DNA from: Rossellomorea aquimaris
Lineage (GTDB): Bacteria > Bacillota > Bacilli > Bacillales > Bacillaceae_B
Assembly (NCBI RefSeq): GCF_000935355.1
Contig: NZ_JXZC01000009.1
Span: 62,001-126,000 of the forward strand
DNA: 64,000 nucleotides
Reading direction: 5' to 3'
The notes under the pieces were generated by a model, which was not told the DNA's origin, searched no databases, and saw nothing but the letters and a program-made list of their open reading frames with translations. A program made the translations under genes and the position numbers. Shown here one piece after another: positions 51,542 to 54,637 of the stretch (position 1 is its first letter; each line of letters starts with the position of its first letter).

Positions 51542-52162
51542 ATGGAAGGTATTCTGTATATACGCTTACGTCATCGAGTGCAGGTAAGGGAAGAGAGTAT
51601 GGTCAAGCTTGGTCAGCTTGCTCAAATCATAGCACCTGAAAATATTTTAGAAGAATTAAGACAAATCCCGATCCATCAAGTGACTCCATCTGATAAAAAT
51701 ATCATTGTGGTCGATGTGATGACGGTGATAAGGGACATATGCAAAAACTTCTCGGATCTTGATATTCAAACGATAGGACCCACACAAAGTATTATTGAAG
51801 TGATCTATGAGAAAAAGAAAATCTCTCTTCCTCTCTTCATTGGCGTTTGGTTACTATTATTCATCGGTGCGGCCCTGGCAATTATGAATTTCCATGAAGA
51901 TGTAAGCATGAGGGAAGTTCATCAAAGGCTGTATCATTTCGTGACAGGTGAAGAGGATCCTCATCCTCTACTGTTCCAAGTTCCCTATTCATTCGGTTTA
52001 GGTCTTGGGATGATCTTATTTTTCAACCATGTGTTCAGAAAGAGACTTAATGAAGAGCCGAGTCCACTAGAAGTTGAAATGTTTAATTACCAGCAGGATT
52101 TAGATCAGTATGTCATCATGCATGAGAATAAAGAAAGTCAGAAAAAATTAGATGACCATTAG
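51542..52162 (+). CDS. spoVAA: Stage V sporulation protein AA
   Basis: Membrane-associated component of the SpoVA dipicolinic acid channel complex. It has 206 aa, the B. subtilis length. The N-terminal soluble domain MEGILYIRLRHRVQV... is followed by two transmembrane segments (about residues 95-115 and 147-167) and a short cytoplasmic tail. I chose ATG 51542, 7 bases after AGGAAGTG; GTG 51533 overlaps this site. The end overlaps spoVAB by 11 bases. SpoVAA and AB are needed for nutrient germination in B. subtilis but are absent from many clostridia. Confidence 0.93.
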   Translation: MEGILYIRLRHRVQVREESMVKLGQLAQIIAPENILEELRQIPIHQVTPSDKNIIVVDVMTVIRDICKNFSDLDIQTIGPTQSIIEVIYEKKKISLPLFIGVWLLLFIGAALAIMNFHEDVSMREVHQRLYHFVTGEEDPHPLLFQVPYSFGLGLGMILFFNHVFRKRLNEEPSPLEVEMFNYQQDLDQYVIMHENKESQKKLDDH

Positions 52163-52574
52163 TGTATTGATCACAGTATTTATTGGTTTTGCTGGTGGAC
52201 TGGCCGTTGGTTCCGGTTTTGTAGCATTTTTAACCGTATTAGGAATCATCCCAAGGTTGACTCAATTAACAAAAACAATGAAAATGATTCATCACTATGA
52301 ACTGGCTGTCATTATAGGAGCACTGGCTGGAGGATTTGTCAGCTTAAATAATTATACGTTGCATTTTTCCCCATTCGTTCTTATGCCCATCGGTTTAGCG
52401 AGCGGAGTGTTCATAGGGCTATTGGCGGCTGCATTAACAGAGGTATTGAATGTTTTCCCGATCTTGGCGAAGCGGATTGGGATAGAAGGTCAAATCGTCA
52501 TTCTCATTATGGCGATTGTGTTTGGGAAAATAGCCGGCTCACTTTTTCATTGGCTCTACTTGGTTCATCAATAA
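52152..52574 (+). CDS. spoVAB: Stage V sporulation protein AB
   Basis: Integral membrane protein of 140 aa with four predicted transmembrane helices, part of the SpoVA complex in the spore inner membrane. [32 protein letters not shown] and the central [17 protein letters not shown] match the family. It begins within the end of spoVAA, so translation is coupled. In B. subtilis the next genes are spoVAC, spoVAD and spoVAEb; here the next gene is spoVAEa, 22 bases on. Confidence 0.95.
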
Positions 52575-52596
52575 ACAGCAAGAGGCAGGGGTTCAT

Positions 52597-53166
52597 ATGG
52601 ATGACAAACGAAAAGTGATCCTGATTACAGACGGAGATGAATATGCGAAGCGGGCAATAGAGTGCGTTGCCAAAGAGTATGGAGGCCGATGTATCTCGAG
52701 CTCAAAAGGAAATCCTTCTGTATTATCAGGGCCAGAGATTGTGAAATTAATCAGAAGTGCAAAGAATGACCCCGTCTTTGTGATGTTTGATGATAGTGGA
52801 TTTATTGGAGAAGGTGCAGGCGAAAGAGCTCTAAAGCATGTTGCGAACCACCCTGGCATAGAGGTCCTCGGAATCATTGCGGTAGCAAGTAAAACCAGGC
52901 AGGCTGAATGGACAAGAGTGGATGTGTGCATTGATAAATTCGGTGAACTAACTCCATATGGGGTAGATAAATTTGGTGTACCCGAAATGGATTTGGGAAG
53001 GTTAACGGGTGATACGGTTTATTGCCTTGATGAGCTGGATGTTCCCGTCATTGTCGGAATTGGTGATATTGGCAAAATGGCTAAAAGGGATCACTACTCA
53101 CAAGGCTCACCCATTACGAAAAAGGCTGTTGAAATTATCTTGGAAAGGAGCGGATATCATGCCTGA
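52597..53166 (+). CDS. spoVAEA: Stage V sporulation protein AE, soluble subunit (SpoVAEa)
   Basis: A 189-aa soluble protein: [39 protein letters not shown] starts a Toprim-like fold, and [19 protein letters not shown] and [21 protein letters not shown] are family blocks. It corresponds to the 'AEa' gene that B. subtilis has between spoVAEb and spoVAF. The role in DPA movement is accessory. AGAGGCAGGGG precedes the ATG. It overlaps spoVAF by 8 bases. The expected upstream neighbours spoVAC, AD and AEb are missing. Confidence 0.92.
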
Positions 53167-54637
53167 GAAAACGAAAGAAACACCCATATCGAAAGATTTA
53201 GGTGTTATAGAAGAGTACATGAAGAATCATGTAGGATTAAACAAAAGCTTTGATTTAGGTGTACGAAAACTCATGATTTTGAAAAAAGGAGTCCACATCT
53301 ACTATATAAACGGGTTGACTGATGCTTCCTATATTATTCAAATCGTGGAGGAACTTGTTGAAATCAATGATCATGAGCGTGCAACGAGCCGATTATATGA
53401 AATTGTACATAATCGCCTAGTTCATCAATCGGTTGAGCCTGTAAAAACGATCGAAGAGGCAGTTGATGAAGTGCTATCAGGATTAATAGCAGTCTTTGTC
53501 GAAGGCTACCAAGATGCAATCATTGTTGATGTACGCAGCTATCCTGGGCGACAGCCTTCAGAACCTGATACTGAAAAGGTAGTACGTGGTTCCCGGGATG
53601 GATATGTAGAGAATATTATCGTTAATACCGCTTTAACAAGAAGAAGAATTCGGGATCCACGATTGAGGTTTGAAATATTTCGTATCGGAGAACGATCTAA
53701 AACTGATATTTCCATTGCCTATATAAATGATGTTGCAAATCCGAGCTTAATTGAAGTCATCAAGAAAGAATTGAAAAGTATTAAGATCGACGGATTGACG
53801 ATGGCGGATAAAACGGTTGAAGAGTTCCTTGTGAAGCAAGGGTATAATCCATATCCTCTTGTTCGATACACAGAAAGAGCAGACGTCGCAGCCACTCACT
53901 TATTAGAGGGACATGTTCTTATATTTGTCGATACTTCACCAAGTGTCATCATTACACCAACGACATATTTCCATCACCTTCAGCATGCGGAGGAATATAG
54001 ACAGTCACCGGCTGTCGGGACCTTTGTCAGATGGACTAGATTCCTTGGGATATTAGCCTCGCTATTTTTACTCCCGCTATGGTATCTATTTGTGTTGGAT
54101 CCATCCCTCTTGCCTGAGGTTATTAAATTCGTAGGACCAAATGAACAGACGAATATTCCCGTTATTGTTCAGTTGTTCATAGCCGATTTCGGGGTTGAAA
54201 TGTTCAGGGTGGCAGCCATTCATACCCCGACCCCATTATCCACTGCAATGGGTCTGATAGCGGCTGTCTTAATAGGACAAATAGCCATTGATGTAGGGCT
54301 TTTTCAACCTGAAGTCATTCTGTATGTAGCCGTGGCATCGATTGGTACGTTTGCTACACCAAGTTATGAACTGAGTGCTGCGAACAAGATGGCCAGACTG
54401 TTCCTTCTAATCGCAGTTGCCTTCTTCCATATACCTGGACTGATGGTGGGTACAACCCTTTATATCTTATTCGTTACAAATATAAAATCGTTGAATACAC
54501 CATATCTATGGCCGCTAATGCCATTCAGTCCTAAAGCATTCATGCAAATCCTGATTCGCCGCTCTATGCCGGGAGCAAAAATCAGACCAAGCATTGTGCA
54601 ACCGAGAAATAAGTATAAGCAACCTGCGAAATCTTAG
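53159..54637 (+). CDS. spoVAF: Stage V sporulation protein AF (GerA-family membrane protein)
   Basis: A 492-aa spore inner-membrane protein of the GerA/SpoVAF family. An N-terminal soluble domain of about 300 residues contains the [42 protein letters not shown] block (only summarised here) typical of germinant receptor A subunits. Four or five transmembrane helices follow from about residue 300. The C-terminal [19 protein letters not shown] motif fits. It modulates germination, probably with YqhR. ATG 53159 overlaps spoVAEa; the frame upstream to 53009 is rejected. Last gene of the operon; lysA follows. Confidence 0.94.

Follow-up and report, generated by a model that had tools for sequence, protein, structure and literature searches.

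A spoVA operon without its transport core in Rossellomorea aquimaris and a spoVA2-type core elsewhere in the genome

Bacterial spores become heat-resistant by taking up dipicolinic acid (DPA), and they begin to germinate when it is released. To our knowledge, how the germinant signal is passed on to the DPA channel has yet to be established. Passages of PMC11841064 describe SpoVAC, SpoVAD and SpoVAEb as the minimal DPA channel of B. subtilis. The window, the whole stretch of 64,000 nucleotides that was analysed (G000:C44:62001-126000, from a 4.3-Mb draft genome of 44 contigs), contains a spoVA operon that has none of these three genes. The locus raises the question of where the transport core went and why the other four genes stayed.

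The four-gene operon and the only core in the genome

The operon lies between sigF and lysA and is made up of spoVAA, spoVAB, spoVAEa and spoVAF, all of which are open frames with a Pfam match (Table 1). The first two genes overlap by 11 bp and the last two by 8 bp, and the 22 bp separating spoVAB from spoVAEa contain no spoVAC, spoVAD or spoVAEb. Pfam matches and reading of the junction thus confirmed the gene order reported in the first-pass annotation, together with its description of the flanking genes as intact and tightly spaced. The locus shares with the seven-gene B. subtilis operon (spoVA1) the sigF–lysA position, the AA-AB-...-Ea-AF order and a sigma-G-like promoter, and differs from it in lacking C, D and Eb. 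For spoVAA, the ATG at 51542 was preferred on the strength of its SD sequence, caggaag.

Table 1 Features of the core-less locus and of the core operon outside the window
Feature	Position	Strand	Length	Basis
Inverted repeat with A/T flanks, terminator-like, between sigF and spoVAA	51291..51341	.		spotted by eye, without a terminator scan
Sigma-G-like promoter, TACATA, 17 bp, CATACTA	51471..51500	+		12/13 consensus positions
spoVAA	51542..52162	+	206 aa	PF12164 (SporV_AA) 6.8e-16
spoVAB	52152..52574	+	140 aa	PF13782 (SpoVAB) 2.9e-36
Junction, place of C-D-Eb in seven-gene operons	52575..52596	+		carries SD of spoVAEa
spoVAEa	52597..53166	+	189 aa	PF14097 (SpoVAE) 5.8e-83; NF052647 4.9e-104
spoVAF, GerA family	53159..54637	+	492 aa	PF03323 (GerA) 8.7e-156 and operon position
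spoVA2-type core operon, L003 (G000:C1), outside the window	10174-7125	minus		Pfam and layout

The closest named relatives of SpoVAEa are from Rossellomorea, with 98% identity to R. aquimaris CH422a_13T. Its AlphaFold2 model (pLDDT 83.9) predicts an alpha/beta protein with confidence; the best Foldseek match to the PDB had an E value of 0.019 and none reached 0.001, so no relative is proposed. PDB sequence searches matched SpoVAD to 3lma and 3lm6, and SpoVAF to 6o59 and 9prb, whereas SpoVAEb gave zero matches and SpoVAEa a single one at E 0.79, to which no weight is given.

The same junction is found throughout the genus: each of its 36 genomes analysed has both PF03862 proteins (SpoVAC and SpoVAEb) either over 0.9 Mb away from SpoVAEa or on a different contig. 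Among 74 named loci, one genome contributing two, spoVAB adjoins spoVAEa without a core in 57, a full core is present in 16, and one locus (L083) is truncated where its contig stops. The 57 core-less loci come from Rossellomorea, Cytobacillus, Peribacillus, Neobacillus, Niallia and Heyndrickxia; their AB–Ea gap spans 19–316 bp and is 60 bp or less in 53, the value of 192 in L135 resulting from a broken spoVAEa frame. Because the junction recurs across the genus genomes and these named loci, an assembly artefact is excluded, including the misjoin at 52575-52596 against which the first-pass annotation had cautioned. In the assembly of R. aquimaris TF-12, which is perhaps duplicated or mixed, two contigs each carry a copy of the locus (L077, L078) with identical coordinates and scores.

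A whole-genome check of the kind proposed in the first-pass annotation found two PF03862 proteins and one SpoVAD (PF07451) in total, encoded together in a single operon of contig C1. This operon encodes a 155-residue lipoprotein (YhcN/YlaJ-like, NJ), SpoVAC, SpoVAD, SpoVAEb and a DUF421 protein. The lipoprotein, and with it the lipoprotein-C-D-Eb order of L003, is recognised by a lipobox, by alignment with counterparts of other genera and by a weak match to PF09580 (E 0.0012, 19.4 bits, under the curated cut-off of 26.3, which two of five others scanned pass). SpoVAD is 51% identical to spoVA1 SpoVAD and 68% identical to spoVA2 SpoVAD from other families. The label spoVA2 is given here by layout and published description, the trees containing no named B. 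cereus or Tn1546 core; the layout, including the lipoprotein-C-D-Eb order, is as published in parts of PMC13059800 and PMC5133452.

As described in passages of PMC13059800, spoVA2 of the B. cereus group shares this order and a SpoVAD approximately 50% identical to that of spoVA1, but the published genomes also have a complete spoVA1, whereas in Rossellomorea the spoVA2-type core is the only one. A further difference may lie in DUF1657 genes, none of which was recognised beside the L003 operon by eye in the open-reading-frame list, the small frames being judged in this way only. The spoVA2mob of Tn1546, as given in parts of PMC5133452 and PMC10126465, likewise has lipoprotein-C-D-Eb followed by a DUF421 gene, but that gene encodes the 286-residue 2Duf (DUF421 plus DUF1657), whereas the protein here has 231 residues, with DUF421 and YetF_N only and no DUF1657 match. 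The operon is also chromosomal and belongs to a sub-lineage other than that of the mob-like cores, a label based on NJ/DUF421 scores with no named reference. Plasmid-borne SpoVAD sequences from Priestia, Peribacillus and a B. velezensis plasmid (17 records, taken as sequence matches with gene layout aside) show 66–69% identity, near the 68% of spoVA2 and far from the 51% of spoVA1, which fits a mobile history of spoVA2. Upstream of the lipoprotein gene, sigma-G sites showed no excess (2 of 28 loci scoring at least 10; mean 8.9 against 9.1 for shuffled sequence). A second DUF421 gene lies on the opposite strand (L003:4040-4732), approximately 2.4 kb from the end of the operon. In the complete genome of Rossellomorea sp. 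AcN35-11 (L161), the sole SpoVAD is spread over two frames, reflecting a frameshift or a sequencing error.

Spread of the core-less state across the order

For the order as a whole, 130 evenly sampled genomes were classified by coordinates, and the 14 left unclear by a match list that was cut short were settled by reading the locus. SpoVAEa is present in 94 and absent in 36. The core is retained at the site in 60 of the 94, C, D and Eb are all missing from it in 33 ('split' genomes, distributed over 15 family codes), and SpoVAD alone remains in one (G104). For 25 of the 33 split genomes (all except G001, G003, G021, G023, G100, G113, G135 and G160), the locus that holds the core was also read; each has the order lipoprotein-C-D-Eb, with D broken in G129. 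In 20 of 21 named split genomes searched, this arrangement was found at one or more places; the place fetched from G067 had SpoVAD beside DUF421 only. Two genomes of family f26, genus g57 (G127 and G185), each rated 99% complete, have zero PF03862 proteins and are perhaps non-spore-formers.

The number of losses was estimated on two trees. An 86-row tree was built by a quick search from genes of the operon and its neighbourhood only. One supported clade in it unites 27 of the 34 strictly split rows and comprises Rossellomorea, Peribacillus, Cytobacillus, Neobacillus, Heyndrickxia and further families. The split rows outside it are G093, G059 with G126, G096 with G134, G091 and G163, and the partial states there are G094 and G104. 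The split label requires six changes on this tree, four of them forced by supported branches, or seven if partial states are counted as split, which suggests approximately six losses of the core. A single ancient deletion inherited by all split lineages, with the scatter ascribed to tree error or later regain, is not rejected by a careful 50-row tree from which 22 close relatives were left out (p-AU 0.27; 27 of 29 split rows already in one clade, 100/99), and G053 entered the main clade once more genomes were added. We nevertheless regard a single origin as unlikely, given the changes required by the 86-row tree, the spoVA2 core of G059, which comes from a sub-lineage other than the main clade's, and the existence of partial states in G104, G044 and G114. 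The core-less trait is old, common to several genera and recurrent, and the same swap seems to have taken place several times in related bacteria.

The retained genes

In 18 Rossellomorea genomes, dN/dS of spoVAA, spoVAB, spoVAEa and spoVAF is 0.016–0.054, compared with 0.015–0.079 for the flanking genes; the retained genes are under purifying selection, like their neighbours. The sigma-G-like site scores at least 10 in 82 of 91 split and full loci, against a shuffled mean of 9.0. The AA-AB-Ea-AF set is intact in 25 of 29 distinct split or partial loci, and two more differ only by a frame split. The genome also encodes FigP and DpaA, a subunit of the DPA synthase.

The four genes might be functionless relics alongside the spoVA2 core, as could be read from the lack of SpoVAEa in 36 of the 130 genomes, the missing AA and AB of G094 and G104, and broken copies such as the spoVAEa of G161; the strength of purifying selection, the conserved promoter and the intact gene set in most split or partial loci make this quite improbable. 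Among the genomes without SpoVAEa that were looked at, ten retain AA-AB-AF (G042, G046, G056, G098, G099, G106, G117, G123, G132 and G136).

Work in B. subtilis, as summarised in passages of PMC11841064, assigns the retained proteins to germination: loss of SpoVAA or SpoVAB leads to premature germination that is suppressed by gerA deletion, SpoVAEa and SpoVAF function in germination, and SpoVAF and FigP together form an ion channel by which the germinant signal is amplified. According to parts of PMC13059800, the spoVA2 of B. cereus is able to substitute for the native B. subtilis operon, and the retained genes are therefore unlikely to be needed for import itself. The Rossellomorea deletion takes exactly the transport trio and spares the control genes.

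Replacement of the core, hybrids and evolution rate

The first-pass annotation had seen in the junction either a clean deletion, with a core of a different lineage encoded elsewhere, or a relocation of the native trio, and had pointed to phylogeny of distant copies as the means of telling them apart. In a C+D+Eb tree of 78 rows, a single branch (100/100, length 0.63) separates 32 cores from the AB–Ea site (the spoVA1 slot) from 46 cores in a lipoprotein or DUF421 context, although one row of the latter group, L165, has neither gene within its short stretch. L168, L149 and duplicate rows with no difference in the first 200 residues of D were left out of the core trees, and genes in two frames (L161 SpoVAD, L261 Eb, L220 Ea, L224 AA) were represented by their best piece, unmended. 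The only core in the genome falls on the spoVA2 side of this branch, supporting the view that the native spoVA1 core was lost from the genome, not moved, and that its replacement is of another lineage. Relocation of the native trio to new neighbours, in favour of which stands its preserved C-D-Eb order, is scarcely credible, as the core tree rejects it at its best-supported branch, which sets this core apart from all 32 spoVA1-slot cores, and genomes with both cores hold the two kinds side by side with D approximately 50% identical.

Probably, the spoVA1 transport core (SpoVAC/SpoVAEb channel and SpoVAD plug) was lost because a spoVA2-type core took over DPA import and release, and the other four genes persist as a stand-alone control operon because their roles can be uncoupled from transport, as the B. 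subtilis precedent indicates. The second, distantly related core, lipoprotein(NJ)-C-D-Eb-DUF421, would import DPA into the forespore and also release it at germination, carrying all DPA transport in Rossellomorea. SpoVAA and SpoVAB would restrain premature germination, SpoVAEa would act in germination and SpoVAF/FigP would amplify the signal, the retained module thereby restraining and triggering the spoVA2 core.

Two species of one genus (G044 and G114) show a mixed arrangement, with a spoVA1 locus of AA-AB-D-AF and a spoVA2 operon of lipoprotein-C-Eb without D (L300, L301; L306, L307). Their one SpoVAD per genome is placed among spoVA1 plugs (mean identity 64–65%, against 50–51%), and their C and Eb on the spoVA2 side (100/100). 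At marker columns, Eb has three spoVA1-like and three spoVA2-like residues out of nine, and C has two spoVA1-like and eight to nine spoVA2-like residues out of 14. Judged from these sequences, the core is a naturally occurring hybrid, in which a spoVA2 channel (C, Eb and lipoprotein) is combined with a spoVA1 SpoVAD plug. In G046, too, lipoprotein-C-Eb stands without D; a spoVA2-type D adjoins DUF421 at another site, and AA-AB-AF is present.

Further arrangements were observed in single genomes. In G104 (L250/L305) the spoVA1 locus is sigF-spoVAD-spoVAEa-spoVAF, with AA, AB, C and Eb gone and a complete spoVA2 core elsewhere. In G129 (L235, L304) the SpoVAD of the spoVA2 operon is in fragments and an intact lone spoVA2-type SpoVAD is on another contig. 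G094 (L219) has lost AA and AB, SpoVAB being absent genome-wide, and a spoVA2 operon is found next to its orphan Ea-AF pair, within a few kb on the 3' side of lysA.

In full operons, core divergence (C, D, Eb) was expressed as a ratio to the divergence of AA, AB, Ea and AF of the same operon, for 46 of the 60 order-sample genomes with a full operon and three named ones; the other 14 of the 60 are G144, with no recognisable AA or AB, and 13 further genomes, and L101 was dropped as identical to L179. A second core was defined as four or more PF03862 matches, or by SpoVAD counts in the three named genomes. The ratio is steady at 0.55–0.74 in the 20 genomes without a second core and ranges from 0.58 to 2.31 in the 29 with one, exceeding 1.1 in 7 of 29 against 0 of 20; four of the 29 show no speed-up (0.58–0.67). 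With relatedness ignored throughout, the difference gave a two-sided p of 0.007 in the first 16 rows (8 versus 8), from which the idea came, and one-sided values of 7e-5 in 33 new rows (21 versus 12) and 6e-4 with one genome per new genus (14 versus 9). When relatedness was controlled, the direction held in an average of 1.5–3.2 of six independent pairs, depending on the cut-off, and was hardly ever reversed, these pairs being too few for significance. Where cores coexist, faster evolution of the spoVA1 core is frequent, as would be expected of a stage on the way to loss.

The existence of spoVA2, its lipoprotein and its mobility are already known. A literature search covering titles, the starts of abstracts and passages, with few subscription journals, returned no report of spoVA1 operons without a core, of repeated loss or of hybrid cores. 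A 2012 survey (PMC3533761) counts C, D and Eb among the genes that all bacilli and clostridia able to form spores possess, and a presence table of this kind would hide such a core swap. On balance we favour a modular SpoVA system, in which the gating and signal module (AA, AB, AF and often Ea) stays and cores are repeatedly replaced by the spoVA2 type; the spoVA1 core would speed up once spoVA2 is present and then be deleted, and the process may stop halfway as a hybrid, as in the two species of one genus with a spoVA2 channel and a spoVA1 SpoVAD plug. Genera such as Peribacillus, Cytobacillus and Rossellomorea depart from the B. subtilis arrangement, and lineages with kept accessory genes and a changed channel, together with the plug-only hybrids, are natural experiments on which parts must match.
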